This document shows positions 1,513 through 21,148 of a DNA stretch of 29,890 bases, piece after piece. The notes beneath the pieces were generated by a model, which was not told the origin of the DNA, did not search any database, and saw only the letters and a list, made by a program, of their open reading frames with translations. Source of the stretch: a virus. The position numbers were made by a program, and so were the translations under genes. The DNA lies in the IMG/VR virus record IMGVR_UViG_3300049783_000650, positions 1 to 29,890 of that record. One strand, 5' to 3'. Every line of letters starts with the position of its first letter. Position 1 is the stretch's first letter.

Positions 1513-1531
1513 AAATACTGCCGACTAATGA
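1513..1531 (+). promoter_or_regulatory. putative phage RNA polymerase promoter, copy 1
   Basis: AAATACTGCCGACTAATGA, identical at 9553-9571 and 21130-21148. Aligned to the T7 class III promoter it keeps AATAC at -16 to -12, C at -9, ACTA at -6 to -3 and G at +1 (here 1530), with the same spacing. The differing central bases are those read by the T7 polymerase specificity loop, so a divergent phage polymerase is the natural reader. It stands upstream of the exonuclease, primase-helicase and RNR genes. Confidence 0.75.
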
Positions 1532-1554
1532 CCAAGACTTAACAGGGGAGACCC

Positions 1555-1794
1555 ATGAACCACAATGATTTGTCGAGGTGGGAAACACTTGGAGGCAACC
1601 TCAATCGTCCACCAATTCCCAAACCTACTAAACCTACTAAATCCAAGGAGAAGCACATGAATTCTGAAAAATGGTATGATAATGCTGTTTCTGAGCTAGA
1701 AACAGAATATGACAACGGAGAGCTATCACCAGAAGAATTTAAATTTGCTATGAAATATTTGAATGATGAGTATGAAGAGGCCAACTATAAATGA
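1555..1794 (+). CDS. hypothetical protein, possible two-start gene
   Basis: The first gene after promoter copy 1. Two starts have good ribosome-binding sites: ATG 1555 (GGGGAG) giving 79 residues, and ATG 1657 (AAGGAG) giving 45 residues. The longer form adds a proline-rich leader (PPIPKPTKPTK, encoded by two and a half copies of AAACCTACT) before the helical acidic part NSEKWYDNAVSELETEYD. The conserved-looking unit is the C-terminal helix, so both forms may be made. The stop overlaps the exonuclease start (ATGA). The function is unknown. Confidence 0.7.
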   Translation: MNHNDLSRWETLGGNLNRPPIPKPTKPTKSKEKHMNSEKWYDNAVSELETEYDNGELSPEEFKFAMKYLNDEYEEANYK

Positions 1795-2648
1795 TTGCAT
1801 TAATTGATGGAGACCCTCTAGTTTACCAAGCTTATTGGCATGTTAAACGAACTTATGAAGCATATCTAAAAAAGCTTAAGAAGCGTTTCACTGATGGTGA
1901 GATTGATGAAGAACACTATGATAGACAGCTTGTCTTAGCTGAGAAATCTTTTGATAAAAATGGTTTTGCTAAAGCTAAGATTAACATGGACATGCTGTTA
2001 GAAAACATTCTAAATGAGTTGTTTGTTGATGAGTATGCTATTGCTGTTGGTGGTGTTGGTAATTACCGACTTGATATTCACCCTGAGTATAAGGCTTCAA
2101 AGACACGGGCGGCTGTTCGAAGTAGTAAACCTGTATGGTTTGATGATCTAAAGGATTACCTTGCAGCCAAAGAGGAGTCTATCTCAACAGATGGTTATGA
2201 AGCAGATGATTTGCTACGAATTTGGTCTAATGACTGTAAACGCACTGACACTGACTACATCATTTGTTCAATTGACAAAGACCTAGATTGTATTGATGGA
2301 AAACACTACATCAACATTCACCCAACAAAACCTAAACACCAGTATGAGATTGCAGCAGAGTACGCTGAGTGGTTCTATTGGTATCAAGTACTTATGGGGG
2401 ATAATGTTGACGCAATACCGGGTCTTAAAGGCTGCGGACCAAAAACAGCAGCTAAAATCCTAGAAGACTACTCAACACGCGAAGGCTACATAGAGGCTAC
2501 TTGCAAAGCTTACTTTAAGGTTTATGGGCTAGAAGAGGGCTACGAGCACCTTCTTTTTAACGGTAAACTAATACATATCCTACCCGCTTTTGGCGAGCAC
2601 TTTTCTATTAAAAGGAGTGTGTACGATGAATTTGTCTTATCTGTATGA
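1791..2648 (+). CDS. 5'-3' exonuclease / flap endonuclease (T7 gp6-like, FEN family)
   Basis: A 285-residue PIN/FEN-family nuclease that removes RNA primers or degrades DNA ends for recombination and precursor recycling. Acidic metal-binding residues appear in the expected order: D6 and D8 (LIDGDPL), the E137-A-D-D140 cluster (GYEADD), D162 and D164 (SIDKD), and D204/D207 in the helix-3-turn-helix DNA-binding segment LMGDNVDAIPGLKGCGPKT (202-220). The length is close to T7 gp6 (about 300). Its start overlaps the previous stop. Its 3' end overlaps the homing endonuclease start by 23 bases. It is the first recognisable replication gene of this unit. Confidence 0.93.
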   Translation: MIALIDGDPLVYQAYWHVKRTYEAYLKKLKKRFTDGEIDEEHYDRQLVLAEKSFDKNGFAKAKINMDMLLENILNELFVDEYAIAVGGVGNYRLDIHPEYKASKTRAAVRSSKPVWFDDLKDYLAAKEESISTDGYEADDLLRIWSNDCKRTDTDYIICSIDKDLDCIDGKHYINIHPTKPKHQYEIAAEYAEWFYWYQVLMGDNVDAIPGLKGCGPKTAAKILEDYSTREGYIEATCKAYFKVYGLEEGYEHLLFNGKLIHILPAFGEHFSIKRSVYDEFVLSV

Positions 2649-3390
2649 AGTCATGGCTAACACCGAGACCTCAGACAGTTTAGGCCATTGGCAAGTACCT
2701 CCTGCTCTATCTCATATTAAACCAAAACAAACACACGGATTTGTTTACTGTATTGAAAGCTTGAAAACAGGACATCTGTACCTTGGAAGAAAGCAAACTG
2801 TTCACGGGGGAAAGAAGTCTAGTAAGCTGTATGGAAAAGAAACCCCTTGGCGAACTTATAGAGGTAGCAGTAAAAACTTAAAAGCACTTATGATTAAGGA
2901 AGGTGCCGAATCTTTCTTATTTCACATACTCGAATATTTTTATACGCGTGGCGGACTAAACGCAGCAGAAATTGAGTGGCAAGTTAAGTGTGACTGTTTG
3001 ACCGCTAAAATGGAGGGAACAGAAGATCGCCTCTTTCTTAACGGACAAATAGCAGCAATGAGGTGGGTGCCAAAAGAGTTTCACACAGATGAGACAAGGC
3101 GTAAAATGAGAGAGTCCCACGCTAAAAATATTGACCATGGAAACTGGCATGTTGGGAAGCCAGCGAGAAACCCTAAAAACAGGGATAATTTAGTTCCCGG
3201 AGGTCTTGACCCAAAATACTGGGGACCCAACAAAAAAGCCGTTATAGTAACGAAAGGTGAAGAACAACACATTTTTAATGATTCAAAATCAGCAGCTAGG
3301 TTCATAGGTTGTGCACATGACTCTGTAGCAAGAGTTTGTAGAGGAGAAAAGAAAACGATTTATGGCTGGAGGGCTACATGGCACGAATAG
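2626..3390 (+). CDS. GIY-YIG-like free-standing homing endonuclease
   Basis: A 254-residue protein of the Seg-like phage homing endonuclease type. The N-terminal nuclease region has GFVYCIES (38-45) and LYLGRKQ (51-57) as a diverged GIY-YIG pair, then WRTYRGSSKNLKALM, and E115-I-E-W, where the family has a catalytic Glu. A basic middle part (HTDETRRKMRESHAK) resembles NUMOD3-type repeats, and the end (SKSAARFIGCAHDSVARVCRG) fits a NUMOD1/IENR1 DNA-binding helix-turn-helix. I chose ATG 2626 because AAGGAG lies nine bases upstream; an upstream in-frame start at 2590 has no such site. It overlaps both neighbours, which is unusual for a mobile gene and implies precise insertion. Confidence 0.82.
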   Translation: MNLSYLYEVMANTETSDSLGHWQVPPALSHIKPKQTHGFVYCIESLKTGHLYLGRKQTVHGGKKSSKLYGKETPWRTYRGSSKNLKALMIKEGAESFLFHILEYFYTRGGLNAAEIEWQVKCDCLTAKMEGTEDRLFLNGQIAAMRWVPKEFHTDETRRKMRESHAKNIDHGNWHVGKPARNPKNRDNLVPGGLDPKYWGPNKKAVIVTKGEEQHIFNDSKSAARFIGCAHDSVARVCRGEKKTIYGWRATWHE

Positions 3391-5084
3391 TAGGACACGA
3401 GCCGTGTTCTTTTTGTGGAAGTAACGACAACAGAGCGATTTATGAAGACGGTGGTTCTTACTGCTTTTCTCCGGGTTGCTCTAAACCTTATGGGAAAGGA
3501 GAATCTATGGATGAAGACGAAGACCTAGACGCCTTGTTTGCAGACACAGGGTCAAGTGGCCGACAGACAAGTAACAATACAAAGGGTAGTAATCGTACTT
3601 GGCTAGTGGATGAAGTAACAAATGATTTTGTTTCTGCAGCAGACCCTAAACGTAAAATACCTAAAGAAATTTACGATTTTTACGGGGTAAAGGTTGGATA
3701 CAACAGTTCTGGTGAAGTTACTGAAAAGTACTATCCCTATGATATTGTTGATAACAAGCCTCAAGGATACAAGATTAGGGTCCTACCGAAGGACTTCAAA
3801 TCAAGGGGTTCTATTGGCAAGGTATCGACTTTGTTTGGCCTAGACAAATTTAACGGGGGTCGTAAGCTAGTTATCACAGAGGGTGAAGAAGATGCCTGTG
3901 CTGTTCAAGCTGCAAGCTATGCCCACTACAAGTGTTTCTATCCAGTTATCTCTCTTCGTTCAGCCACGGGACTAAATGACCTAATTGAGGCTCGTGATAA
4001 GATCCGTGAGTATGATGAAGTAATCCTTTGGATGGATAATGATAAGGCTGGTGATATTGCTATGCCTGAGGCCGCTCGTATAATCGGGTTTGACAAAGTT
4101 AAGATTGTGAAGAGTAGTGAGAAAGATGCTTCAGACCTTTTTGTAAAAAACAAGAAGGCTGTTATGGAAGCTATATGGCGTTCTGTGGATTATACTCCTG
4201 CGGGTATCTTGACTAAGGAAGGCCTTTGGGAGCAGTTAAAAGCTTACAACAACTTGGAGTCTATCCCTTACCCACCCTTTATGGCAGGTCTAAATGAAAA
4301 ACTTAAAGGTATGCGATTTGGCGAGATTACCTTGTGGACTTCGGGTACTGGCTCTGGTAAGTCAACACTACTACGAGAAATTGTTATGCACCTCCTTGAA
4401 ACCACAGAAGATAAAATTGGTATCCTTAGCCTTGAAGAGTCGCCAGCGGAAACAACAAGAAAACTAGTTGGAATGTCGCTGTTCAAAAACCCTGCTGAAG
4501 AAGAACTTACCGATGAAGAACTAGAAAAAGGATTTGAAAATGTCTTTGGTAGTGACCGAATTATGTTGCTTGACCACCATGGTACAGCAGCAAACAGTTC
4601 TGTTGTCGATCACTTAGAGTTTATGGCTTTGAAAGGTGTTAAGTACCTATTTTTAGACCACATTACTCTGCTAGTTGCTGAAGGTGCAGACGGTTTAACT
4701 GGGAATGAAGCAACAGACAAAGTCATGGGTGACCTACTGCGTGTTGTCAAGAAGCATGACATTTGGTTAGGTCTTATTTCACACTTGCGAAAGACACCTG
4801 ATAGTAAGGGTAAGTCTTTTGAGGAAGGTAAGCTGCCAACTTTAGATGACATTCGTGGCTCAGGTTCTATTAAACAAATTAGTATGGATGTTATTGCTTT
4901 TGCAAGGGATGGTGGTTCACCTGATGAAGAAGTTAGAAACACCATTATAACAAAAGTGCTTAAGTGTCGTTATACAGGTTTGACTGGCCCTTCTGGGAGT
5001 CTTAGCTACGATTACAAGACAGGTCGGATGACTTCGATACACAAAGACAATGATTTTGATGAAGATGAAAAGGTAGATTTTTAA
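3378..5084 (+). CDS. T7 gp4-type primase-helicase
   Basis: A 568-residue bifunctional replication protein. It has an N-terminal zinc-binding domain (C10, C13, C29, C34), a TOPRIM primase core (ITEGEEDA 166-173, then WMDNDKAG 218-225) and a RecA-like helicase with Walker A SGTGSGKST (322-330) and Walker B YLFLDH (423-428). The length matches T7 gp4 (566). The acidic tail DNDFDEDEKVDF ends in phenylalanine, as does the T7 gp4 tail that docks on DNA polymerase. It unwinds DNA and primes lagging-strand synthesis. The start overlaps the homing endonuclease. The cognate polymerase is not in the window. Confidence 0.96.
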   Translation: MARIVGHEPCSFCGSNDNRAIYEDGGSYCFSPGCSKPYGKGESMDEDEDLDALFADTGSSGRQTSNNTKGSNRTWLVDEVTNDFVSAADPKRKIPKEIYDFYGVKVGYNSSGEVTEKYYPYDIVDNKPQGYKIRVLPKDFKSRGSIGKVSTLFGLDKFNGGRKLVITEGEEDACAVQAASYAHYKCFYPVISLRSATGLNDLIEARDKIREYDEVILWMDNDKAGDIAMPEAARIIGFDKVKIVKSSEKDASDLFVKNKKAVMEAIWRSVDYTPAGILTKEGLWEQLKAYNNLESIPYPPFMAGLNEKLKGMRFGEITLWTSGTGSGKSTLLREIVMHLLETTEDKIGILSLEESPAETTRKLVGMSLFKNPAEEELTDEELEKGFENVFGSDRIMLLDHHGTAANSSVVDHLEFMALKGVKYLFLDHITLLVAEGADGLTGNEATDKVMGDLLRVVKKHDIWLGLISHLRKTPDSKGKSFEEGKLPTLDDIRGSGSIKQISMDVIAFARDGGSPDEEVRNTIITKVLKCRYTGLTGPSGSLSYDYKTGRMTSIHKDNDFDEDEKVDF

Positions 5085-5294
5085 ATGAACAACGAGAAAT
5101 TTCTAATTGCAATGACGACTTCAATTCTCTCTAAGATTGTTATGGGACTCCCTCTGTCAGACTACGACAAGAATTTCATGGCTGGTATCAAGGAAGGTTT
5201 TGAGTCTATGGAAGAAAAAGAACAGAAAAGCCTAGTGATGTTTTCGGACATTCACCAAGCAGAACTCGAAAAGAAAAAAGGACGGGTTAATTAA
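5085..5294 (+). CDS. hypothetical protein downstream of the helicase
   Basis: A 69-residue protein starting directly after the helicase stop codon (TAAATG) and ending in a TAATGG overlap with the next gene, so all three are probably translationally coupled. The first half is moderately hydrophobic (FLIAMTTSILSKIVMGL), the second half is charged and helical, ending ELEKKKGRVN. The hydrophobic part is too broken to call a membrane segment. No known family is recognised. Its position suggests a replisome accessory role, which is inference only. Confidence 0.75.
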   Translation: MNNEKFLIAMTTSILSKIVMGLPLSDYDKNFMAGIKEGFESMEEKEQKSLVMFSDIHQAELEKKKGRVN

Positions 5295-5599
5295 TGGAAT
5301 ATACTGAACTCACACCTGAGGAAATGCGCCTCTGGAACTATGCAAATAACCTCCTGTATGCCAACTTTAAGGCAGACAATGAAGCGGGTGTTACTCGGTT
5401 CTTGAACGATCCAACAATCAAAGCAAAGTTCAATGATGATCAGCGAACTACCCTGATGCAGTTTTGGTTGCTAATTACGGGTCTTGATGATGAGGCTTAT
5501 GCTGGCGAAACGGGGCCAGAAAAATTTGACGCGGCTGAAGACTACGAGGATGACGAAGAAGAAGATAAAAATTCCCACGACTCCATAAAAGCACTTTAA
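5294..5599 (+). CDS. hypothetical protein with acidic C-terminal region
   Basis: A 101-residue protein. Residues 1-70 look like a compact helical domain (TPEEMRLWNYANNLLYANFKA). Residues 78-95 are strongly acidic (EDYEDDEEEDK) before a short SIKAL end. Acidic tails of this sort occur on replication proteins that compete for DNA-binding surfaces, but here the final residue is Leu, not the Phe of the T7 type. It lies between the helicase and the ribonucleotide reductase. The function is unknown. Confidence 0.75.
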   Translation: MEYTELTPEEMRLWNYANNLLYANFKADNEAGVTRFLNDPTIKAKFNDDQRTTLMQFWLLITGLDDEAYAGETGPEKFDAAEDYEDDEEEDKNSHDSIKAL

Positions 5600-5629
5600 A
5601 AACAATAAAAACAAGGAACCACAACCATT

Positions 5630-7663
5630 ATGGATAGCTATCAAAAATTTATTCACTTAAGCCGCTACTCTCGATTTTTAGACACCGAAGGTCGTCGAGA
5701 GACTTGGCCCGAAACAGTTAGCCGCGTTATGGCTTTCTGGCGAAAACAAATCGGTAACAACGTTCTAACAGATACAGAATTCCAGCAAATGGAAGACTCT
5801 ATCTACAACCTCAAAGTAATGCCCTCAATGCGATCCATGTGGTCTGCGGGGGATGCTCTTGCTTTGAACCACTTCCGAGGCTACAACTGTGCTTTTGCTG
5901 CAGTAGATCACATTCGAGTATTCGATGAGATTCTTTTTATTCTTACGTCAGGGACAGGTTTTGGCTTTTCTATTGAGTCAAAGTACGTAAGCAAACTACC
6001 AATTATCAACGACAACTTTGTCAAGACTGATCGTATTATCACTATCGGTGATTCCGCGGAAGGCTGGTCTAAAGCACTTCGTAAGCTAATTGCTGATCTA
6101 TATTTAGGAAACGAACATGAATGGGATTATTCTGAAATTAGGCCCGAAGGCGCTCGACTTAAGACTATGGGTGGAAGAGCTTCTGGTCCGAAACCACTTA
6201 TGGATCTTTTTGCTTACATAACCTCTGTATTCAAAGGGGCTGCTGGCCGTAAACTTACTACCCAAGAAGTCCATGATATCGTATGTAAAGAGGCTGAAAT
6301 TGTAGTTGTTGGTGGTGTACGACGCTCTGCCCTGATTTCTTTGTCTGATTTGGGTGATGTAATTGTTCGTGACTGTAAGAGTGTCTTCAAAGTAGATGAG
6401 TATGTTCTTGTCAACGAAACTGATACTCACTGGGAATACGCCCTTACGATGAAGAAGAACCAACCTACAAAGCCGACTTACATGGTTAGCTTTGAGAAAG
6501 GTACTTGGGAAGAGTCAGCTAAGTTCGATCTTGAAAACAACAAAATTATCTATTGGAACTTCCTAGAAAAACAACGGGCTTTGTCTAACAACTCTGCTGT
6601 TTATGAGTCTAAGCCTTCTATGGCGGTGTTTATGGATGAGTGGGCTGCCTTGATGAAGTCAGGCTCCGGCGAACGTGGTATCTTTAACCGTGCTGGTGCC
6701 AAAGCCTTTACTCCAACACGCCGAGATAGCACTGCCCTTGTTGGCACAAACCCTTGCGCTGAAATCCAGCTACGAAATGGACAGCTATGTAACCTTACTG
6801 AAGTTGTGGGCCGTGCTGGTGACTCTGTAGAGGATCTTAAAGCAAAAATTCGTATTGCAGCTATTATTGGAACCCTTCAGTCTTCCTTGACTGACTTTAA
6901 ATACGTACGTAAGATCTGGATTAAGAACTGTGAAGAAGAACGCCTACTTGGTGTATCCTTGACTGGTATCCAAGACTGTGAACTTCTTCAGAACCCTACA
7001 GCGGAACTTTTGAAAGAACTTAAGCAGGTTGCTGTAGACACAAACATTGAGTTTGCTAAGCGTTTGGGTATTAACCCTTCAACAGCAGTAACCACTGTAA
7101 AACCTTCTGGAACGGTATCCCAACTAGTTGACTCTGCTTCTGGTATTCATGGTCGTTTTGCTAAGTTCTACATTCGGTCTGTCCGTCAGGCTAATAGTGA
7201 TCCTCTTACTCAGATGTTGAAGGATCAAGGTGTACCAAACGAGCCTGATGCAATGAACCCTGAAATGACAACTGTGTTCTACTTCCCGATTAAGGCTCCA
7301 AAAGATGCGGTCTTTGCAGATGAGCAGGGTGCAATCCAACAGCTTGAGAACTGGAAAATGTACCAAGAGCACTGGTCAGAACACTCTGTATCGGTCACTG
7401 TCTATGTCAAGGAACACGAGTGGCTGACCGTTGGTGACTGGGTCTACCAAAACTTTGACTACATCACTGGTGTGTCATTTTTGCCATACTCTGACCATAA
7501 GTATCTTCAAGCTCCTTATACTGCGTGTACTGAGAAAGAATACTTGACAGCTGTTGATAACATGCCTGATGTTGACTTTTCTCAGCTTGTTAACTATGAG
7601 TCTGAAGATAACACTGAAGGTGCTGCAACTTTGGCTTGCGGCGGCGGCGGGTGTGACATCTGA
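5630..7663 (+). CDS. nrdJ: class II (adenosylcobalamin-dependent) ribonucleotide reductase, monomeric type
   Basis: A 677-residue enzyme that reduces ribonucleoside triphosphates to deoxy forms in the cytoplasm. Compared with Lactobacillus leichmannii RTPR, the active-site set is intact: NPCAE at 374-378 gives N374, thiyl cysteine C376 and E378; C387 lies exactly 11 residues later and, with C87, forms the substrate-reducing pair. The C terminus LACGGGGCDI carries the regenerating C670/C675 pair with the CX4C spacing. No small-subunit gene is present, as expected for class II. About 75 residues separate SLSDL (237-241) from RALSNNSAVY (316-325), noticeably more than I expect, suggesting an insertion. 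AAGGA precedes ATG 5630. Confidence 0.94.
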   Translation: MDSYQKFIHLSRYSRFLDTEGRRETWPETVSRVMAFWRKQIGNNVLTDTEFQQMEDSIYNLKVMPSMRSMWSAGDALALNHFRGYNCAFAAVDHIRVFDEILFILTSGTGFGFSIESKYVSKLPIINDNFVKTDRIITIGDSAEGWSKALRKLIADLYLGNEHEWDYSEIRPEGARLKTMGGRASGPKPLMDLFAYITSVFKGAAGRKLTTQEVHDIVCKEAEIVVVGGVRRSALISLSDLGDVIVRDCKSVFKVDEYVLVNETDTHWEYALTMKKNQPTKPTYMVSFEKGTWEESAKFDLENNKIIYWNFLEKQRALSNNSAVYESKPSMAVFMDEWAALMKSGSGERGIFNRAGAKAFTPTRRDSTALVGTNPCAEIQLRNGQLCNLTEVVGRAGDSVEDLKAKIRIAAIIGTLQSSLTDFKYVRKIWIKNCEEERLLGVSLTGIQDCELLQNPTAELLKELKQVAVDTNIEFAKRLGINPSTAVTTVKPSGTVSQLVDSASGIHGRFAKFYIRSVRQANSDPLTQMLKDQGVPNEPDAMNPEMTTVFYFPIKAPKDAVFADEQGAIQQLENWKMYQEHWSEHSVSVTVYVKEHEWLTVGDWVYQNFDYITGVSFLPYSDHKYLQAPYTACTEKEYLTAVDNMPDVDFSQLVNYESEDNTEGAATLACGGGGCDI

Positions 7664-7863
7664 TGGTTAAAATGGTTAAAAATATGCTACTTACTGTAGT
7701 ACTAAATGAGGAACAAGAAGTTTTCGGAGTTTACTCATCTGAGGCCCTAGCAAATGAAATGCTTATGAAGCACATGCTTAGTACCGAAGGTTTAGAGGGT
7801 GAAGACGCCAAAATGGAGATTGGTGTATTGTTTCACATTGATACCGTAATCCTAGATGATTGA
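7663..7863 (+). CDS. 66-residue hypothetical protein
   Basis: It starts at ATG 7663, overlapping the RNR stop (TGATGG), so it is likely coupled to RNR translation; ATG 7672 is a second in-frame possibility. The fold appears alpha/beta, with LLTVVLNEEQEVFGVYSSEALANEML reading as two strands and a helix, and an acidic end VILDD. I do not recognise a family. The position between RNR and glutaredoxin hints at a nucleotide-metabolism link without showing one. Confidence 0.7.
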   Translation: MVKMVKNMLLTVVLNEEQEVFGVYSSEALANEMLMKHMLSTEGLEGEDAKMEIGVLFHIDTVILDD

Positions 7864-8008
7864 AAAAGCAGTAAACGACAACTATTACCTCGCTCTAAAG
7901 GCTGTTCTAAAGGCCAATGACAAAATAAATAACAAAACAGAAAACAAGGAAGAAATCACATGGAAAACCAAGATCAAAACACTGACTCTGTCGCTATTGA
8001 AGCTGTAG
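7856..8008 (+). CDS. possible 50-residue overlapping ORF
   Basis: It starts at ATG 7856 inside the end of the previous gene and runs to TAG 8006-8008, overlapping the next gene by 49 bases in another frame. The first 33 residues (MIEKAVNDNYYLALKAVLKA, then a Lys- and Asn-rich stretch) read like real protein; the rest is forced by the overlap. It fills an otherwise empty 96-base gap. No strong ribosome-binding site is seen. It could be a decayed gene or a short leader peptide for the following genes. Confidence 0.35.
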   Translation: MIEKAVNDNYYLALKAVLKANDKINNKTENKEEITWKTKIKTLTLSLLKL

Positions 8009-8202
8009 AGGGCAACTCTGCCTTGGAAGCTGTCATTGATGAAAACGGCCAAACCGTTGTTTTGTCTGTAAAAGATAAACAGCTTCAGATGTTCTCTAAG
8101 AACGTCACTTTGGAGGAAGTCATTATCATGCTTACAGTCTCTATGGAAACCGCCCAATGCCAACTGAGTTCGGAAGCTGTAGAAGACGCAGAGGAAGTTT
8201 AA
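7960..8202 (+). CDS. acidic hypothetical protein
   Basis: An 80-residue acidic protein with AAGGAAG nine bases before ATG 7960. It contains a short predicted beta hairpin (NGQTVVLSVKDKQLQMF) and a helix (TLEEVIIMLTVSMETAQ), and ends in acidic VEDAEEV. The stop overlaps the glutaredoxin start (TAATG). It has no catalytic signature and does not match a family I know. Confidence 0.75.
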   Translation: MENQDQNTDSVAIEAVEGNSALEAVIDENGQTVVLSVKDKQLQMFSKNVTLEEVIIMLTVSMETAQCQLSSEAVEDAEEV

Positions 8203-9318: not shown

Positions 9319-9554
9319 ACCTACCAATGGAATACCCACTACCAATGAAAACCAAGTACGTTGATGAGGAAACCACTGCCACAAACCGTTGGATGATCTT
9401 TGGAGAGTATGGTGACCTCGCCGATAACGTGGATATCAGTGATGGTACCCAAGACATTATCACCCATATCCCTCGGTGGAGGGCAGAGATTATCATTGAG
9501 GCAAGAAATGTCTTTGTTAATATCCTCTTAGAGCTTGGGCAACCATTTACATAA
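9315..9554 (+). CDS. hypothetical protein
   Basis: A 79-residue protein starting at ATG 9315, overlapping the previous stop; AGGAG at 9301-9305 serves it. It contains NRWMIFGEYGDLADNV and IPRWRAEIIIEARNVFVNIL. It is the last gene before promoter copy 2, whose first bases overlap its stop codon. No family is recognised. Confidence 0.7.
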   Translation: MNLPMEYPLPMKTKYVDEETTATNRWMIFGEYGDLADNVDISDGTQDIITHIPRWRAEIIIEARNVFVNILLELGQPFT

Positions 9555-9571
9555 ATACTGCCGACTAATGA
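9553..9571 (+). promoter_or_regulatory. putative phage RNA polymerase promoter, copy 2
   Basis: AAATACTGCCGACTAATGA, identical to copies at 1513 and 21130. Upstream context TTTACAT resembles TTTACAA of copy 3. The predicted +1 G is 9570, giving a 40-base leader before the gene at 9610. It opens the unit carrying the tRNA-like element, RNA-repair genes and NAD genes. Confidence 0.75.
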
Positions 9572-9840: not shown

Positions 9841-9851
9841 AATAAACACTG

Positions 9852-14209: not shown

Positions 14210-14249
14210 TAACAAAAATTACAAACACACAAAGAAAGATATAAATAAC

Positions 14250-14495: not shown

Positions 14496-14725
14496 TGAAT
14501 ACCGGAATTAAAAACGGTAAGCTTGTAATTGACATGGCTGAAGCAGAAGAACTCTGGAACTCTATGTCAAAAGACCAGCAGTTCGATGCAATGTGTGCAA
14601 TGTTTGACCCACTGCTTGCAAAGGCAACCAAAATGAAAAGAGCATTAGAAGCCATTGTTCTATACTCAGCAGACTATGATTACAATGCTTGTCACGATAT
14701 CTCTAAAAAAGCTCTAGAAGACTAA
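14495..14725 (+). CDS. hypothetical protein
   Basis: A 76-residue helical acidic protein overlapping the previous stop. It includes MAEAEELWNSMSKDQQFDAM and KRALEAIVLYSADYDYNA. It is the last gene before the NAMPT homolog. No family is recognised. Confidence 0.68.
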   Translation: MNTGIKNGKLVIDMAEAEELWNSMSKDQQFDAMCAMFDPLLAKATKMKRALEAIVLYSADYDYNACHDISKKALED

Positions 14726-14753
14726 ATATCAAACCCACATGATTGGAAAAACA

Positions 14754-16097
14754 ATGACTGACTTCAACCTAATGTACGCTGCTGACTTCTATAAAGTGTC
14801 TCACAAGGCACAGTACCCTGATAACGTTACTAAGGTACACTCAGTACTTGTTGCTCGTGGTGCCAACTACAACGACAATATTTCTAAAGAGGAGTTCCAA
14901 TGGTTTGGTTATTCCTTGTTTATTGATAAGCTTCAAACTTGGTCAGGAGAATTTTTTGCGACACCTTACCGCCACATTGTTGATGTGGATCTTAAAGAGT
15001 ATAAGCAGTTTCTTGACACACGTCTTGGTGGGGATAACGATGTATCGCACTGGGCCGCTCTACACTCTGTTGGACACCTCCCAATCACTATCTGTGCTGT
15101 ACCTGAAAAGACTATTGCTAAGTTCCAAACACCCTTGTTAACTATTGAAAACACAGACAATCGTTTTGCTTGGTTGCCAGCCTTCATTGAGACAAGTATG
15201 TTGGCAAACGTCTGGGGTGTAACAACTGCAGCTAACCGTTCTTGGCACATTCGTAAATCTATTGAAGCAAAGATGGTTGGTTACTCTGAGGAAGAACTTG
15301 CTGCTATTGACTTCATGGGACACGACTTCTCTTACCGTGGTTTGATGGGTGATGAAGCTGCAGCTATGGTTGGTTGTGGTCACCTTGCTAACTTCAAAGG
15401 CTCTGACACTATTCCAGCTATCCGTAAGATGGAGCAGGTTTATGGTGAGATTACTGGCTTCTCTGTCCCTGCTACTGAACACTCTGTTATGTGTGCGGGT
15501 GGTCAGAATACCGAAGAAGAAACCTACTCAAGGATCCTTGACATTTATCCCTCTGGTATTGTTTCGATTGTATCAGACACTTGGGATTACTTCAAGGTCC
15601 TTACTGAAACACTCCCTTCCATGAAAGATCGTATCATGGCTCGTGAAGGTAAAGTTGTTATTCGTCCTGACTCAGGTGACCCTGTTGAGATCATTTGTGG
15701 GGTTGCTTATATTCCAAATCACAAGCCAACAGATGCAGAAAAAGGTTCACTCCGTATCCTTGATGAGGTCTTTGGTCACACCCTTGACTCAGCCGGACTC
15801 AAGGTTCTTGACTCACACATCGGTCTGATCTACGGTGATGGTATGAATCAAGAGCGTATTATCACTATGCTTGACACTATGATCGAACGGGGCTACTCAC
15901 CTCTTAACCTTGTCTTTGGTATCGGTGCCTACACCTACCAGCTTACTACCCGTGATGAGTTGGGTTTCGCCTTTAAAGCTACTGCCGTTGAGATTGAGGG
16001 TGAGTGGGTAAACATTCAGAAAGACCCTAAAACAGACCAAAGTAAGAAATCTCTTACCGGACGTTTTGTTGGGGGTGATCTTAAAGAGGTATTTTAA
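14754..16097 (+). CDS. nadV: nicotinamide phosphoribosyltransferase homolog (NAMPT/NadV; possible Namat)
   Basis: A 447-residue type II phosphoribosyltransferase. NAMPT makes NMN from nicotinamide and PRPP; the relative Namat of the phage NARP1 pathway instead makes NAD directly from nicotinamide and ADPR-pyrophosphate. Key human NAMPT residues have counterparts: DFYKVSH (11-17; Y18 region), HDFSYRG (190-196), NFKGSDT with D218 (human D219), the catalytic histidine in SVPATEHS, H243 (human H247), RPDSGDP (304-310; human R311/D313), YGDG (360-363; human D354) and KKSLTGRF near the end. I chose ATG 14754, which aligns with NAMPT N termini; ATG 14739 has no ribosome-binding site. Its Prs-like partner lies 142 bases downstream. 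Confidence 0.93.
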   Translation: MTDFNLMYAADFYKVSHKAQYPDNVTKVHSVLVARGANYNDNISKEEFQWFGYSLFIDKLQTWSGEFFATPYRHIVDVDLKEYKQFLDTRLGGDNDVSHWAALHSVGHLPITICAVPEKTIAKFQTPLLTIENTDNRFAWLPAFIETSMLANVWGVTTAANRSWHIRKSIEAKMVGYSEEELAAIDFMGHDFSYRGLMGDEAAAMVGCGHLANFKGSDTIPAIRKMEQVYGEITGFSVPATEHSVMCAGGQNTEEETYSRILDIYPSGIVSIVSDTWDYFKVLTETLPSMKDRIMAREGKVVIRPDSGDPVEIICGVAYIPNHKPTDAEKGSLRILDEVFGHTLDSAGLKVLDSHIGLIYGDGMNQERIITMLDTMIERGYSPLNLVFGIGAYTYQLTTRDELGFAFKATAVEIEGEWVNIQKDPKTDQSKKSLTGRFVGGDLKEVF

Positions 16098-16100
16098 TAT

Positions 16101-16238
16101 ATGGGTATACTGTGTCCCTACTGCGGTAAAGACCAAGATAGTAAAACCCAAGTGCGTTTTGCAGGGCTACGTTGGCACCTCCAATGTTGGCGACCTTGGC
16201 TAGAATATGAGTTAAATGAAGCAAAGAAGGAAACATGA
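16101..16238 (+). CDS. 45-residue zinc-ribbon-like protein
   Basis: A short gene between the NAMPT homolog and the Prs-like gene, starting three bases after the first stop and ending one base before the second start. It begins MGILCPYCGKDQDSK and has C5, C8, H26 and C29, a plausible C2HC zinc site. The placement strongly suggests co-expression with the NAD pair. It is also similar in form to tiny zinc-finger proteins scattered through phage genomes, so a functional link to NAD metabolism is only a guess. Confidence 0.7.
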   Translation: MGILCPYCGKDQDSKTQVRFAGLRWHLQCWRPWLEYELNEAKKET

Positions 16239-16239
16239 T

Positions 16240-16932
16240 ATGATGAAGACTTTTAATTACTACAAGCGCGGTAAGGGTGAACTTAACACCGAGAACTTCC
16301 TTGATTTGGCCTTTCAACGCGAAATTCACGTTCGCCAACTGGATAGTAAAACCTTTGTGTCACTAATGGCCCTCCAACTATACAAAAGCCAAAGCTCGCG
16401 GTGTGCTGCCCGAAAACAGACAGTCTATGTAGAAGGTTATGTAGACCACATGAGAGGAGATAAGGATAAGTTCCCTGTAAGTACTATTTACTCTTATCTT
16501 CACTCTTTCGATATTGTCTGCCTCTCTATCCAGCATGAGAGCACAGGCTATATCAAATCAGATACCCTTACCAAGAAAGAAATCCTTGGAGACTTGCCTA
16601 CCGTAAATACTGACAGCGTTCTTTTTATTGGAGCAGATAGCTCTGTGCCTAAATTCTTTCCTCAGGTTGATGGGTTTGCAACTAAAGTACGAAAGGATGG
16701 GAAGGTCACTAGTCTTTCCTTTGACACAGATCTTGACCTAGACGTGTATGATATTGTTATTGTTGATGACCTGATTGGTGGTGGTGCCACTGTTCAGATG
16801 CTTGTTGACATCCTTGAGGATAACGGCTTTGGAGGGGATATCTCCCTTTGGGTTCGGTACAACGAGGGTATCCATAAGCCAGAGTTCTTGCGATCTAACT
16901 TTAATGATTGGTACATTGGCGACGAAGTTTAA
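16240..16932 (+). CDS. PRPP-synthetase-like protein (Prs family; possible Adps)
   Basis: A 230-residue protein of the ribose-phosphate pyrophosphokinase superfamily. The PRPP-binding loop is clear: IVIVDDLIGGGATV (172-185), compare VLVDDMIDTGGT in E. coli Prs. Other segments line up in order: FVSLMALQLYKSQSSRCAAR with the LMELVVMVDALRRA helix, EGYVDHMRGDKDKFP with the GYARQDR loop, SIQHES with DLHAEQ, and VLFIGADSSVPKF with VVSPDIGG. It is shorter than Prs (about 315), lacking most of the first strands and the last part. ATG 16240 follows AAGGA. Beside an NAMPT homolog it could supply PRPP, or ADPR-pyrophosphate as Adps does in NARP1. Confidence 0.82.
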   Translation: MMKTFNYYKRGKGELNTENFLDLAFQREIHVRQLDSKTFVSLMALQLYKSQSSRCAARKQTVYVEGYVDHMRGDKDKFPVSTIYSYLHSFDIVCLSIQHESTGYIKSDTLTKKEILGDLPTVNTDSVLFIGADSSVPKFFPQVDGFATKVRKDGKVTSLSFDTDLDLDVYDIVIVDDLIGGGATVQMLVDILEDNGFGGDISLWVRYNEGIHKPEFLRSNFNDWYIGDEV

Positions 16933-16966
16933 GAATCCCTAATAACGAAATAAACTGGAGAACATT

Positions 16967-17068
16967 ATGGAATATATTTTTGTAGCTTTGGCTGGTGCTG
17001 TTCTTGTTGCTCTGGCCTTCAAGGAAGATAACGCTTGGAATGAGTGGGAAGACGATAATGACATTTGA
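16967..17068 (+). CDS. 33-residue single-pass membrane peptide
   Basis: It starts at ATG 16967 with TGGAG upstream and ends at TGA 17066-17068, overlapping the next start (17058) by 11 bases. Residues 3-18 (YIFVALAGAVLVALAF) form one membrane helix, followed by an acidic tail, KEDNAWNEWEDDNDI. Such micro-membrane proteins are common in phage accessory regions. Its function is unknown. Confidence 0.6.
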   Translation: MEYIFVALAGAVLVALAFKEDNAWNEWEDDNDI

Positions 17069-17216
17069 GGAATGGTTTGACAATAACAAAGAAGACATAG
17101 TAAGTAATTGTGAAAATCGTATGGACGAGTACGATGCTAGGGACTGGCTTGAAGCTGCCTTTGCCGCCGGTTGGAATGACTCAAATAAACACTCAGGGAG
17201 AGAAACTGGTGAGTAA
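17058..17216 (+). CDS. 52-residue hypothetical protein
   Basis: It starts at ATG 17058 within the end of the membrane peptide gene; the open frame extends upstream but that part is the shadow of the neighbour. It begins MTFEEWFDNNKEDIV and continues WLEAAFAAGWNDSN. The MTFEEWF start and the A-AGW motif are familiar from tiny unannotated phage proteins. It overlaps the next start (17209). Confidence 0.65.
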   Translation: MTFEEWFDNNKEDIVSNCENRMDEYDARDWLEAAFAAGWNDSNKHSGRETGE

Positions 17217-17529
17217 GTGTGTAGTTGTTTTAGGTGAGGGTGTTAATAAACCCTCACTTGTAATGGCTAGGCTAATAAGGCAAATGGAAGCTAGTGATGT
17301 CGAGGTAGAGTTTATAGAAGTAAGTGACACTATTTACGGCAAGACTTTTGATAGTGTAATCGTTGATGACTTGGAAGGTATAAAAAAAATGAAACAACAG
17401 AAACTTGAGAAACAACTGGCTGATATCAAGAAACTTTGTAAGTTATCAGCTAAGTACTGGCCAAGTATGGACTTCCTTGCTGAAGCAATACTAGAAACCT
17501 ATGAAAATAAAGATAAGGAAACTACATGA
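17209..17529 (+). CDS. hypothetical protein, GTG start
   Basis: A 106-residue protein. I take GTG 17209 as the start because AGGGAG lies just upstream and the protein then begins MSKCVVVLGEGVNKPS; the ATG at 17110 in the same frame lies wholly inside the previous gene. It has an alpha/beta start (VVVLGEGV, VEVEFIEVS, SVIVDDL) and a Lys-rich coiled middle (KKMKQQKLEKQLADIKKL). The function is unknown. It overlaps the next start (ATGA). Confidence 0.65.
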   Translation: MSKCVVVLGEGVNKPSLVMARLIRQMEASDVEVEFIEVSDTIYGKTFDSVIVDDLEGIKKMKQQKLEKQLADIKKLCKLSAKYWPSMDFLAEAILETYENKDKETT

Positions 17530-17873
17530 TTAACCAAAACAGAGCAACTGGGCGTACGCATCGGCTGGCACTAAAGGCTTGCCTCCTTGCAAGTGAGGGT
17601 AAGAAGGTAACCTTTATCTATGGCCCTCATAATGAAATGCATGAGATATTCAGACAGCTCAGCTATATTAGTATTCCAGCAAACGCAATCTATAGCAAAA
17701 TGGCCCAAACTGTTAGATATCCCGGTGGCGGCTTAATTGAACTTGTCCCTGCACACGCTTGCCATAGAGGTAGACATTACTCTATCATTATGATGGATGA
17801 GTTGAAAGGACTAACTTGGCCTCAAATTGAGAGTCTTAATAAACAGCTTGGTAATCCACACATCACAACTTAG
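17526..17873 (+). CDS. possible diverged P-loop protein
   Basis: A 115-residue protein with RATGRTHRLALKAC (6-19), resembling the RxTGRTTRL form of Walker A found in several phage ATPases, though the usual Lys is replaced by Arg. A strand VTFIYGP follows, and SIIMMDELKGL near residue 90 looks like a Walker B with DE. It is much shorter than a full helicase or terminase, so it may be a single-domain relative or a remnant. ATPase activity is uncertain because the catalytic Lys is missing. Confidence 0.7.
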   Translation: MINQNRATGRTHRLALKACLLASEGKKVTFIYGPHNEMHEIFRQLSYISIPANAIYSKMAQTVRYPGGGLIELVPAHACHRGRHYSIIMMDELKGLTWPQIESLNKQLGNPHITT

Positions 17874-17885
17874 AGGAGTTTCTAA

Positions 17886-18422
17886 ATGACTAATAAAAAC
17901 AAAGTAAAGCTGCACGTAGGCTATGTTGGTATCACCCGTAATGGAAAACGTATGGAGATTGATAGTAGTAACTATGACCCAGAATACCCATTTAAGTCAG
18001 GGTTCTACACCTATCGTAGAAATGGAGATTACTGGAGTAGGAGTACTCGTATATCCAACCTTGACATTATGGGTCCTTGGGTAGAAAAGGTAAAAGAAGA
18101 AGAAGAAGAAACTGGTAACTACAATGACGGTAACTGGCACCGCTGGCATGGTGGAGAACGCCCTGTTCATAAAAAAACTGAAGTCGAAACTATTTTGGCC
18201 TTTAACAACCAACCTGTTAAAGGCCTAGCGGAGGTCTTTAGCTGGAATCACGATATGGACCCAATCCTTACCTTCCGTGTGGATAAAGAGTATGTTGAAC
18301 CAGTTAAGCCGCAAGAATTTTGGGTTAGTAATAACGATGGTTATGCACACGATAGCTTAGAAAGTGTGCTAGAAGATCCCTTTACTGAAAAGTATGGCTA
18401 TACACATGTAAGAGAGGTATGA
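17886..18422 (+). CDS. hypothetical protein
   Basis: A 178-residue protein with AGGAG upstream of ATG 17886. The first 70 residues read as beta sheet (LHVGYVGITRNGKRMEI, GFYTYRRNGDYWS), followed by an acidic and His/Trp-rich linker (KEEEEETGNYNDGNWHRWHG) and a C-terminal part with YVEPVKPQEFWVSNNDGYAH. Not recognised. The N-terminal pattern (user-visible sheet with GITRNGK) occurs in other unannotated phage proteins I recall only vaguely. Confidence 0.7.
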   Translation: MTNKNKVKLHVGYVGITRNGKRMEIDSSNYDPEYPFKSGFYTYRRNGDYWSRSTRISNLDIMGPWVEKVKEEEEETGNYNDGNWHRWHGGERPVHKKTEVETILAFNNQPVKGLAEVFSWNHDMDPILTFRVDKEYVEPVKPQEFWVSNNDGYAHDSLESVLEDPFTEKYGYTHVREV

Positions 18423-18426
18423 AAGA

Positions 18427-18597
18427 ATGATCACTCCAAAAGTAAACCGTGTTGAGATTATTGACCACGGAGACCACAACAATTCTGAAACTAATCGTAC
18501 TTACATGAACTATGAATGCTATAACGTATGGGTTGACCTACAAGATGATGGTTACACCTTGAAAATATTCCTAAACACAAAGACACACACAAACTAA
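18427..18597 (+). CDS. 56-residue hypothetical protein
   Basis: A short ORF starting at ATG 18427, four bases after the previous stop, with GAGAGG about ten bases upstream. It begins MITPKVNRVEIIDHGDHN and has a two-strand look (ECYNVWVDLQDDGYTLKIFL). It occupies a gap that would otherwise be about 195 bases. The function is unknown. Confidence 0.55.
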   Translation: MITPKVNRVEIIDHGDHNNSETNRTYMNYECYNVWVDLQDDGYTLKIFLNTKTHTN

Positions 18598-18617
18598 AGC
18601 TCTAGGAGAGTAACATT

Positions 18618-19043
18618 ATGAAATCACTATTTAAAAAATCCTTCCTTGCAATTTTCGCCCTTGTGGGTGTTCTTAGCCTGTCAGCCTGTGTTGATGATGC
18701 TTCAATGGCTTCGGCTAACCTATCAAGAGCCGCTGACATGTTCGAGATTGAACGTAAGATTGTGTTCTACAACGGTATCACTGATGAGTACATTGCTGTT
18801 ATCGAGGGGCGCTGTTCTATTCAACCTATCTCAGGTCGTCTTGAGGTCACTTGTAAGACTGGTGAAAATGAGTTTGAAAAGCACTTCCTTGGTATCTCAG
18901 ATAACGTTACCTACTTTGCTATGCAGACCGAGACAGCTGATGTTAGTGTCTATCACAGCCGTATTATCTGGAAGCCACAGTCAATTATTCCTGATGTAGA
19001 CTTGAATATTAACTTGGAAGAACTCACAACTGATCGTAATTGA
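18618..19043 (+). CDS. beta-sandwich lipoprotein
   Basis: A 141-residue lipoprotein. The basic N terminus MKSLFKK, hydrophobic core and lipobox LSAC with C24 give a clear signal peptidase II site; residue +2 is Val, not Asp, favouring outer-membrane sorting. The mature part (VDDASMASANLSRAADMFEI, KIVFYNGITDEYIAVIEGRC, EKHFLGISDNVTYF) matches a family I recall as 'beta-sandwich lipoprotein' in phages and prophages. TAGGAGAG precedes the start. By analogy with T5 Llp, a phage lipoprotein can block its own receptor and prevent superinfection, but this family has no proven role known to me. Confidence 0.88.
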   Translation: MKSLFKKSFLAIFALVGVLSLSACVDDASMASANLSRAADMFEIERKIVFYNGITDEYIAVIEGRCSIQPISGRLEVTCKTGENEFEKHFLGISDNVTYFAMQTETADVSVYHSRIIWKPQSIIPDVDLNINLEELTTDRN

Positions 19044-19106
19044 TAAATTCTAAACTCTTTGCTACAACAACTTTCTTAACATAACTCATATATGGAGAAT
19101 AAAACA

Positions 19107-19466
19107 ATGCCAAATAAATTTAAAGTAGGCGATGTAGTCGTAGGTAACAAATTACATATTTCCCGTAAACGTCATGGTATGTCAGGAAAAATAGCCTCTG
19201 AAGGAAACGGCGGCTACTTTGTTTTGTGGGCTAGCGAAGTTGAGCCATTACTTGCTTTTGCCAGAGAACTTTATAAGTCTCCAAGATTTAAGGTTGGGGA
19301 AGAGCACGAGGAGCAACTTGACAAGGAGTACAAGGAAGAGTTTGGAGTAACCTACTCACAACACCTAGAGATTGGCAGACTCACTAGGGAGATCAGCACC
19401 TATGTCTCCATAGAAGATAAACGTAAGCGACTATTCTACCTTAGATCACTTCTTAAAAAGGAATAA
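19107..19466 (+). CDS. KOW/SH3-like small protein
   Basis: A 119-residue protein started at ATG 19107 with GGAGA nine bases upstream; ATG 19092 overlaps that site and has none of its own. The N terminus FKVGDVVVGNKLHISRKRHG with GGYFVLWASEVEPL resembles an SH3-like barrel. The C-terminal half is a charged helical hairpin (HEEQLDKEYKEEFG, then a Lys/Arg-rich end RKRLFYLRSLLKKE). Similar openings occur in the genes at 11155 and 12665. The function is unknown. Confidence 0.72.
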   Translation: MPNKFKVGDVVVGNKLHISRKRHGMSGKIASEGNGGYFVLWASEVEPLLAFARELYKSPRFKVGEEHEEQLDKEYKEEFGVTYSQHLEIGRLTREISTYVSIEDKRKRLFYLRSLLKKE

Positions 19467-19470
19467 AACG

Positions 19471-19635
19471 ATGGATGATGAAGATATAAGTTTTTGGCTT
19501 GGCTTTGTTGGTGGTGGTATACTTATGTTTCTCTCTGTGTTAATCACTGACCATAAGTTAGAGTCCGACTGCCAGACAGAAAGTAACGTTGCGGACTGCA
19601 CTTGGGTGCTTGTACCAACTATTGAAAAGGAATAA
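19471..19635 (+). CDS. 54-residue membrane protein with exposed cysteines
   Basis: It starts at ATG 19471, four bases after the previous stop, with AAGGAA upstream. An acidic start (MDDEDIS), one membrane helix (about 8-26, FWLGFVGGGILMFLSVLIT) and a C-terminal tail with C34 and C43 before WVLVP. If the N terminus is inside, the tail faces the periplasm and could form a disulfide. The layout (C, then NV..C.WVLVP) resembles small phage proteins I have seen unannotated. Confidence 0.68.
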   Translation: MDDEDISFWLGFVGGGILMFLSVLITDHKLESDCQTESNVADCTWVLVPTIEKE

Positions 19636-19638
19636 ACA

Positions 19639-20238
19639 ATGTCTAAAGCAACTTATGAAGAACTACTTGAAGGCTCAACCACTTGGAGTTTCAAGGAAGG
19701 TGGTATCCCCTACTCCTTGAGTTACCACGGTTACAAGGAGCCTGACTTTACTGGCCACCCCCTCATTAGTGATGGAAGCCCCGGTACTTGGTGCTACTAT
19801 CTCTATGCTAACAAACTTATGTACCCTGAAAGCTGGTCCCAGTTTGCTAACTTTAGAGGGGAATACGGCTTGAATGTTGGATCAGCTTGGAATCACGTAG
19901 ACTTCTATGGTGGCATCACTTGGAATAGCGATGAAAACTTCTGGGACCGCAAGTCATCAGGTATTATTGAGGCAGTAAAGATTGGGTGTGATTATAACCA
20001 CTCTTGGGATCACGACTCAGGGTTTATTAATGGTTTTCACTCAGTAAAGGCAGATGCTATCAACACCTGTAAACAACTACTTGAGGCTTTCCCTTTGGAA
20101 CGTGTTCGTTGTGGTTATAGTGGTACTTGGGTTAAACCTGAGGACTCTTATGTTGCTGTTAATGGTAGTACTGTTTGGAATAATGCAGAAGTATCTAATA
20201 TTGATGCTATTAACTCTAGCTGGAAGGAAGATAAATAA
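19639..20238 (+). CDS. hypothetical protein
   Basis: A 199-residue protein rich in Trp, Tyr, Gly and His (YSLSYHGYKEPDFTGHP, GTWCYYLYANKLMYPESW, NHVDFYGGITWNSD), suggesting a compact beta-rich globular domain. AAAAGGAA lies upstream of ATG 19639. There is no signal peptide and no known catalytic signature. The H-x-D and D-H-D residues (WNHVDF, SWDHDSGF) could bind metal, but that is speculative. Confidence 0.72.
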   Translation: MSKATYEELLEGSTTWSFKEGGIPYSLSYHGYKEPDFTGHPLISDGSPGTWCYYLYANKLMYPESWSQFANFRGEYGLNVGSAWNHVDFYGGITWNSDENFWDRKSSGIIEAVKIGCDYNHSWDHDSGFINGFHSVKADAINTCKQLLEAFPLERVRCGYSGTWVKPEDSYVAVNGSTVWNNAEVSNIDAINSSWKEDK

Positions 20239-20239
20239 A

Positions 20240-20440
20240 ATGGATCCTATTCAAAAAGCAAAACGAGGCACTGAGCAGTTTGTTAAACAGCTGGCGAATG
20301 TCCAGCCTAAGATGTTAGACGAACCTCAGGCATACAAACGTGCTTGTATCCGTCTTGGCTACGAGGCTGCAATTGCAATCATTACTGCCAAAAGTGTTAG
20401 CCCAGAAGACTTAAACACTATAGATTCAAAGGAACAATAA
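20240..20440 (+). CDS. helical hypothetical protein
   Basis: A 66-residue protein starting at ATG 20240 with AGGAAG upstream and beginning MDPIQKAKRGTEQFVKQL. The same frame is open further upstream, but that part is a shadow of the previous gene. It is mostly helical (YKRACIRLGYEAAIAIITAK). The next gene starts directly after its stop. The function is unknown. Confidence 0.68.
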   Translation: MDPIQKAKRGTEQFVKQLANVQPKMLDEPQAYKRACIRLGYEAAIAIITAKSVSPEDLNTIDSKEQ

Positions 20441-20818
20441 ATGCTTATTTCTGATATGAAACCAATTACTACTCTTGAAGAACTTGCTGTTATCCTTGAT
20501 GGTATGGATAATAAAGACCCTAACTTAGACCTTGGCTTTGACATGGGCTGGAGCGCACCTACCGATGAGACTACAGTAGAATGTGGTTCTGCCTGTTGTA
20601 TTGGTGGTTGGATCAACTCAATCAATAAAACTGACATGTCTTTAGAAGCTGCTGTAATGTCTATTTCTAGCTTAACAGAAAGGACTTCCCTAGATCTTTG
20701 TTTTAATAGTCTTGCTGTTGACTTTGACACGACACCCCAGCAAGGTGCTAAGGCAATTCGTAATGCAATAGAGTTTGGTGATGCTAAGTGGGAAGAGGTT
20801 CTTTCTAATGAAGCTTAA
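20441..20818 (+). CDS. hypothetical protein with CGSACCIGGW motif
   Basis: A 125-residue protein. The segment ECGSACCIGGWINS (about residues 47-60) resembles a CGTxxCIAG motif that recurs in unannotated bacterial and phage proteins; three cysteines in five residues suggest metal or redox chemistry. The C-terminal half is helical (TPQQGAKAIRNAIEFGDAKW). The next gene starts within its end. No firm family name. Confidence 0.72.
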   Translation: MLISDMKPITTLEELAVILDGMDNKDPNLDLGFDMGWSAPTDETTVECGSACCIGGWINSINKTDMSLEAAVMSISSLTERTSLDLCFNSLAVDFDTTPQQGAKAIRNAIEFGDAKWEEVLSNEA

Positions 20819-20975
20819 TCGGGACATACAGAACATACAAAAAGATAAAAAGTACTGTTCAGACTGTGAGGAAGAAATAGATAGTGATGGTGATCCTGTA
20901 GGGGAAAACTGTGACTGCCCTTATGGACCCTCTTGTGATACCTGTAAACGACGCTGGTGTGATCTATCCTGCTAA
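20808..20975 (+). CDS. 55-residue cysteine-rich protein
   Basis: I start it at ATG 20808, after GAGG, giving MKLNRDIQNIQKDKKYC. Eight cysteines at 17, 20, 35, 37, 43, 46, 51 and 55 make up two likely metal sites. The last part (CDTCKRRWCDLSC) is basic. It is the final gene of the middle unit, directly before the terminator-like hairpin. It may be a small zinc protein binding nucleic acid, which is inference. Confidence 0.68.
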   Translation: MKLNRDIQNIQKDKKYCSDCEEEIDSDGDPVGENCDCPYGPSCDTCKRRWCDLSC

Positions 20976-20992
20976 TAAACTAACACATGCAT

Positions 20993-21063
20993 CCAACCAA
21001 CCCTTCCTTAATGCCCTCTGGGGTGTTTTGGTTGGGTTGGTTGGGTGACCATAATTTTTTTTT
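20993..21063 (+). terminator. rho-independent terminator-like hairpin
   Basis: CCAACCAACCC (20993-21003) pairs perfectly with GGGTTGGTTGG (21034-21044). The loop contains a smaller CCC/GGG hairpin (CCCTCTGGGG). Nine T residues follow at 21055-21063, ten bases beyond the stem, a little far for a textbook terminator. Its place after the last gene of the middle unit supports termination. Confidence 0.6.
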
Positions 21064-21129
21064 GCTTTTATTGGGACCTCTGTAAGACACTGAAACAATC
21101 ATACAAATAAGGGTAAAGAATATTTACAA

Positions 21130-21148
21130 AAATACTGCCGACTAATGA
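21130..21148 (+). promoter_or_regulatory. putative phage RNA polymerase promoter, copy 3
   Basis: AAATACTGCCGACTAATGA, identical to copies at 1513 and 9553. TTTACAA precedes it, close to TTTACAT at copy 2. The predicted +1 G is 21147. It opens the packaging and virion unit, just after the terminator-like hairpin. Confidence 0.75.

Follow-up and report, generated by a model that had tools for sequence, protein, structure and literature searches.

Three identical 19-bp sites in a 29,890-base virus record (the window, by which we mean the whole stretch of DNA analysed) are very probably promoters for a phage-encoded, single-subunit RNA polymerase of the T7 family. The polymerase gene, judging by a syntenic relative, would lie about 12 kb upstream of the first site and outside the fragment. 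Direct computation showed the sites themselves, how they are conserved and placed, the polymerase of that relative, and the covariation between polymerase residues and promoter bases.

T7-type sites at the heads of gene units

The 19-mer AAATACTGCCGACTAATGA occurs exactly three times in the window. In the list below, +1 is the start predicted by alignment with the T7 promoter.

1513..1531, + strand: predicted T7-type promoter 1 (-17 to +2; +1 at 1530), before the replication/nucleotide unit; orthologous sites at G008 14205 and G004 43331
9553..9571, + strand: predicted T7-type promoter 2 (+1 at 9570), before the tRNA/RNA-repair/NAD unit; orthologous sites at G008 21519 and one in L024, variant copy (17/19) in L004
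21130..21148, + strand: predicted T7-type promoter 3 (+1 at 21147), before the terminase/virion unit; orthologous sites in L006, L016, L022 and L023 and at G004 59219

A preliminary description of this DNA had reported three identical + strand copies between genes and no other exact copy. The identity, strand and intergenic position of all three were confirmed, except that the copy at 9553 shares bases with the stop codon of the ORF at 9315-9554. The second statement was borne out, in that neither strand of the window holds a further copy with up to 3 mismatches. The next-best sites in an exhaustive scan of the window match 13 of the 19 bases, and 100 dinucleotide shuffles yielded 0 matches.

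The 19-mer aligns without gaps to the T7 sequence TAATACGACTCACTATAG, taken from promoters phi1.1A/B, and shares with it positions -16 to -12, -9, -6 to -3 and +1. It thereby has the T7-family layout from -17 to +1 (AATA, a variable core, TA at -4/-3 and G at +1). Unlike T7, it has the core TGCCG at -11 to -7, and TAATG where T7 has TATAG. The description had also proposed that T7 bases are kept outside the core and that the central specificity bases differ; the former stands, but C at -9 is common to both sequences, so that one of the five central bases taken to be different is in fact the T7 base.

The gene content after each site broadly agrees with the proposal that the sites precede replication/nucleotide, RNA/NAD and packaging/virion genes. 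Site 1 is followed by genes for a 5'-3' exonuclease, primase/helicase, a ribonucleotide reductase (RNR) of the B12-dependent type and glutaredoxin, site 2 by tRNA-Ile, an AAA_33 kinase, a phosphoesterase, RNA ligase and NAMPT/NAPRTase, and site 3 by the terminase large subunit (TerL) and tail-fibre-like proteins. Two of these genes were used to place the phage:

3378..5084, + strand: primase/helicase (Toprim + DnaB_C) of the first unit
22939..24276, + strand: terminase large subunit, 67% identical in amino acids to those of DSS3_PM1 and DSS3_VP1 (Naomviridae, Noahvirus)

Because of the 67% identity of TerL to its DSS3_PM1 and DSS3_VP1 counterparts we place the phage near Naomviridae. The primase/helicase is 52% identical to that of DSS3_VP1/DSS3_PM1 over 85% of the query. 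Membership of Naomviridae is demarcated by the ICTV, in outline, on core genes and genome-wide similarity to Noahvirus; at the level of single genes, TerL and primase/helicase are similar and the RNR type is different. Near the start of the window, the adjacent ORFs 74-472 and 477-851 (74-851 overall) have short exact repeats in common and resemble each other at the C-terminal end, a pattern that a tandem duplication would leave.

An exact scan of IMG/VR for the 19-mer returned 21 stretches in 19 contigs. When up to 2 mismatches were allowed, each of the 20 records (these 19 and the window) carried 1-4 sites, on one strand per record, and a reversed-pattern control in the same records gave 0. 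Of the 33 distinct sites, 30 fall outside the same-strand ORFs of at least 80 aa, which take up 83% of the DNA; the three inside ORFs are in L005, L023 and G004 (9308). The interior of the motif is invariant by construction, the sites having been collected by pattern, but the 28 distinct flanks are alike only at -19 to -17 and at +5 (A in 26/28), with likeness falling off on both sides. The copies are therefore not parts of longer repeats, and the conserved block is the size of a T7 promoter. In five records (L005, L012, L013, L017 and L021) sites stand in tandem, 120-123 nt apart, the two copies differing at -6 or -17.

The sites of G004 precede the portal gene (9308), follow the polymerase gene by 0.45 kb (34391) or correspond to window sites 1 and 3 (43331 and 59219); an equivalent of window site 2 is missing from G004. 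The portals of G004 and VP1 share 48% identity, and VP1 has T7-like sites of its own at distances of 41 and 130 nt upstream of the portal gene, in the same place as in G004 and with a different sequence. The TGCCG motif was not found in VP1, PM1 or the first 50.0 of 58.1 kb of CRP-7 (best matches 13/19 in VP1 and 14/19 in PM1). Its absence from VP1 and PM1 first argued against a family-wide promoter, and both proved to have their own T7-like repeat.

The polymerase of a syntenic relative

According to the preliminary description, the phage should encode, outside the window, a single-subunit RNA polymerase with a new specificity, and the contig G008 supports this. G008 is syntenic with the window, with blocks of 80-94% nucleotide identity across window positions 1-10535, and carries a polymerase gene at 106-2295, about 12 kb upstream of 14205, the counterpart of site 1. 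With the VP1 polymerase as query, three of the 19 other records with the motif gave T7-family homologues (G008, G004 and, as a partial one, G016); the remaining 16, many of which are short, gave none. A locus search with the G008 polymerase alone returned its own contig only.

Within the window, a PF00940 search of the record gave no match, nor did it in any of 14 control genomes; for this reason a tblastn search with three family polymerases was run with G008 as positive control, which matched, and no RNA polymerase gene was found in the window. The contig L014, one of the 19 from the exact scan and 99.9% identical to window 1-3576, extends 3.4 kb farther upstream and is too short to reach the polymerase. 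We infer that the phage of the window carries the same polymerase as its G008-type relatives.

The G008 polymerase has 730 aa (883 in T7) and a single Pfam match, to PF00940, with 253.4 bits against a cut-off of 22. The equivalents of T7 D537, R627, K631, Y639, H811 and D812, the six catalytic residues checked, are all kept. Its structure was predicted with a pLDDT of 91.4 (37 sequences), and the 50 Foldseek matches listed for the model all belong to T7 or mitochondrial RNA polymerases; that to 1cez, the T7 promoter complex, has a TM score of 0.78. By its PF00940 score, catalytic residues and T7-like predicted fold the protein belongs to the T7 family; its specificity hairpin lies at 603-614 / 617-631 in the model, with the turn at 615-616, and the loop residues track promoter bases, with few phylogenetically independent pairs.

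In T7 numbering (MAFFT alignment) the G008 loop, one residue shorter than that of T7, has E746, S748, R756 and R758. By comparison with other polymerase classes, such a loop would go with G at -7 and with C at both -9 and -8. Among TGCCG-type polymerases position 746 is E or D, for G at -7, and positions 756 and 758 are both R, for C at -9 and -8 respectively; the full-length ones in the tree (L043, L044 and L045) form one clade with an SH-aLRT of 99 in a quick tree.

Covariation of loop residues with promoter bases

Three scans yielded 184 loci with 81 distinct related polymerases, of which 8 had too little adjoining DNA to be used. For the remaining 73 a DNA-only rule, whose fixed bases and distance range were chosen after inspecting earlier results but which did not see the polymerase sequence, looked 120-480 nt downstream of the polymerase gene and called a T7-like site in 43/73, versus 3/73 on the opposite strand. 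A looser repeat search gave 85 clusters on the plus strand versus 37 on the minus strand. The 30 polymerases of 73 left without a call include VP1, the whole sub-clade around L119/L155 and L044, the polymerase of the window's syntenic relative, which has its nearest site 1.4 kb downstream. For L107, L114, L117, L119 and the clade around L155 no promoters were found.

Five tied calls (L055, L056, L059, L070 and L096) were dropped before the covariation analysis, and the 38 untied ones reduce to 28 distinct loop/promoter pairs with 14 promoter cores (-12 to -5): CTGCCGCC, GTGCCGCC, CCTGACGT, CCTGACCT, CTTGACCC, CTTGCAGA, CTTCGCCC, GGGCGGAA, CCCGCAAA, CCCGTGAC, CGACGTAC, GTGATCGC, GAGATCGC and GTGGACGT. 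Five pairs were added by hand: T7, T3 and K11, with cores that agree with annotated promoters (for K11 phi1.05, not the differing phi1.1), L044, with the core of the sites on its own contig, and SP6, with what we take to be its promoter core. Classes read by eye post hoc (L046, L048, L049, L054, L055, L067 and L096) were kept apart, and VP1 was excluded because its sites vary at -10 to -8.

When loop positions 739-763 (T7 numbering) were compared with the eight core positions, the pairs 758/-8 (z 12.4), 746/-7 (12.0) and 747/-5 (11.7) ranked first, second and third and 756/-9 about fourteenth (z 7.9). The first two held their places among all loop-by-promoter pairs in two scan versions, and when each of the 19 promoter classes was given a single row the order became 758/-8, 746/-7, 746/-8, 756/-9. 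The 33 distinct pairs are distributed as follows:

758/-8 (33 pairs): K with A 14, K with C 1, Q with T 5, R with C 6, E/D with G 6, S with A 1
746/-7 (33 pairs): R with C 20, Q with A 4, D/E with G 3, T with G 4, K with G 1, V with T 1
756/-9 (33 pairs): R with C 10, I with G 11, V with G 4, M with G 2, E with A 2, and I with C, N with C, K with G and T with G 1 each
748/-11: D/E with C 16/16

Held-out prediction, from which classes with a residue unique to one class were excluded as unpredictable, gave the right base in 16/17 cases for 758/-8, 15/15 for 746/-7, 14/15 for 756/-9 and 10.7/18 for 748/-11. These scores were reached by 0, 0, 1 and 34 of 2000 shuffles, respectively, in which phylogeny is not removed. 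Residue 746 also predicts -8 (10/15, reached in 5/2000 shuffles), and 748 versus -10 is at chance level (6.7/18, reached in 540/2000). For each rule the tree offers 1-5 phylogenetically independent pairs, too small a sample for any rule to be significant; they are concordant or uninformative, except for a trace of discordance in 748 K/R versus -10. The 758/-8 rule is broken by L094, which has K758 with C at -8, and would also be broken by the annotated K11 promoter phi1.1. The assignment of columns 746 and 748 relative to T7 depends on a one-residue gap, which MAFFT puts in the hairpin turn, in agreement with the predicted turn at 615-616, and phmmer before 746; within this phage group both columns are independent of its placement. 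Taken as comparisons of sequences, these data suggest that promoter DNA letters change in step with polymerase amino acids across related phages.

In T7, R746 contacts -7. According to the portions consulted of two papers, T7 N748 contacts -10/-11, R756 contacts -9 and Q758 contacts -8 (PMC5937735), and template-strand G, A and G at -9 to -7 are read mainly by Q758 and R756, with N748 helping (PMC7948468). On those portions (PMC5937735, PMC7948468) the pairs 758/-8 and 756/-9 are T7 contacts. The pairing of R758 with C at -8 (template G) and of E/D758 with G at -8 (template C) would follow the same hydrogen-bond logic.

If read as a code, residue 758 would set -8 (R-C, E/D-G, Q-T, K-A), 746 would set -7 (R-C, D/E-G, Q-A) and 756 would set -9 (R-C), and D/E at 748 would go with C at -11. 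T7, T3 and K11 phi1.05 fit the code of this phage group, from which it would follow that the promoter core is largely predictable from the loop. We consider it somewhat better than an even bet that this mostly uncultivated phage group has a natural code, open to reading, by which residues of single-subunit RNA polymerases specify promoter bases, with the core largely predictable from the loop and whole genomes repeatedly re-specified at all promoters together with the polymerase.

For the window, the polymerase would dock on the AT-rich region at -19 to -13, and its specificity hairpin would read TGCCG from -11 to -7, with E746 facing G-7, R758 facing C-8, R756 facing C-9 and S748 probably facing -11/-10. 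It would then melt TAAT at -4 to -1 and start at G+1 with GA. Each site would start a co-directional gene block (the first for replication and nucleotides, the second for RNA repair and NAD, the third for packaging and virion); the times at which the blocks are expressed and the individual atomic contacts are likewise predictions.

Other readings, known systems and accessory elements

Could the sites instead serve the host RNA polymerase as promoters read with an unusual sigma factor, or be operators to which a phage transcription factor binds? Their position before gene blocks would fit, and a separate TATAAT-bearing repeat, another conserved upstream element of these phages, looks more host-promoter-like. 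We nonetheless regard this as very improbable, since the 19-mer aligns gap-free with the T7 promoter, its variable bases track the specificity loop across classes, and a scan of 8000-22000 finds sigma-70-like matches about as often as in shuffled sequence (28 versus a mean of 28.7). Still more far-fetched seems a role outside transcription, in replication, recombination or packaging (as origin, nick or pac sites). T7-group promoters can adjoin origins (the T3 record annotates the primary origin 18 nt after phi1.05) and one of the three sites precedes the terminase genes, but the repeats occur several to a genome in the same orientation, each heading a different gene block, and they covary with an RNA polymerase, the sole protein compared in this way.

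Read as promoters of a T7-family polymerase, the sites belong to a system of a known kind, with a specificity that looks new judging from the literature searched; among the matches listed, from openly licensed papers, no description of TGCCG-type promoters was found. Like the T7, T3, K11 and SP6 pairs of Autographiviridae, it combines a PF00940 polymerase (in G008) that keeps the six checked catalytic residues with a gap-free -17 to +1 promoter, the same loop-to-base pairs and promoters heading gene blocks; unlike them, it comes from a relative of Naomviridae. The likeness to Noahvirus (DSS3_VP1, DSS3_PM1) extends from TerL and primase/helicase to the G008 polymerase (45%), and both genomes have an annotated 'RNA polymerase' upstream of the DNA polymerase. 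Unlike the window, which has the TGCCG motif, VP1 has nnATAGGnnnCGTTAAAG in 12 of the 14 sites listed, with variation at -10 to -8. A T7-family polymerase of an uncultivated phage is also known in EM1 RNAP from an elephant-dung metagenome, for which the excerpts seen of PMC9596486 describe a promoter found by T7 likeness and then tested in vitro. Its ORF45 promoter is TCAGAAGTCACACTATAA in those excerpts (PMC9596486) and differs from ours, the comparison being one of promoters.

What this adds is a promoter specificity that looks new and, counting the relatives, about a dozen more natural classes of polymerase-promoter pair from outside Autographiviridae; these offer candidate orthogonal polymerases for use in expression in laboratory strains. 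Two questions can now be tested: whether the contacts of the specificity loop obey a general code from amino acid to base, and by what route a phage shifts its polymerase specificity when all promoters must shift too.

Two further elements adjoin site 3:

20990..21063, + strand: terminator-like hairpin (20990-21047, -40 kcal/mol, z -6.2; T9 run 7 nt after the stem; from folding)
21147..21619, + strand: predicted untranslated leader of the third unit, strongly structured (473 nt, fold z -5.9)

The hairpin is likely to mark the unit boundary before promoter 3, with a spacing that is not that of a textbook terminator; a consensus terminator scan of 8000-22000 was at shuffle level and did not list it. 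Runs of 8-12 T precede the corresponding sites in L006, L007, L016, L022 and L023 by 54-76 nt. Leader-like DNA (84-96% identity) follows 4 of 29 other motif sites tested, and the leader has 154 consensus pairs over 5 sequences, 6 of them with two-sided changes. No Rfam match at gathering level was found for 21147-21619. In a predicted closing helix, the transcript 5' end pairs with the bases immediately preceding the ORF at 21620.

A second conserved element, AAAAAGTGAGAAAAnTnAnGnATCTATAATGA, occurs at window 9927-9958, in loci L043-L229, mostly upstream of the polymerase gene, and in VP1 at 35790 and 36237. Copies that agree at 20 or more of the 28 fixed positions occur in 117 of 184 overlapping loci on the + strand and in none on the - strand; with the threshold at 24 or more there are 78 distinct copies. 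It contains TATAAT without a recognisable -35 box, and upstream of the polymerase gene it is, from its sequence, a candidate early promoter for the host RNA polymerase. The window copy (20/28) lies directly 3' of tRNA-Ile. In some phages a variant with GGGG...CCCC arms was noted by eye.

In VP1 (L113), the polymerase has T756 and W758 and the sites that vary at -10 to -8 read GGGTGCGT, GGGTACGT, GGTTACGT and GGTGACGT; the variation perhaps reflects relaxed reading or promoters of different strength.
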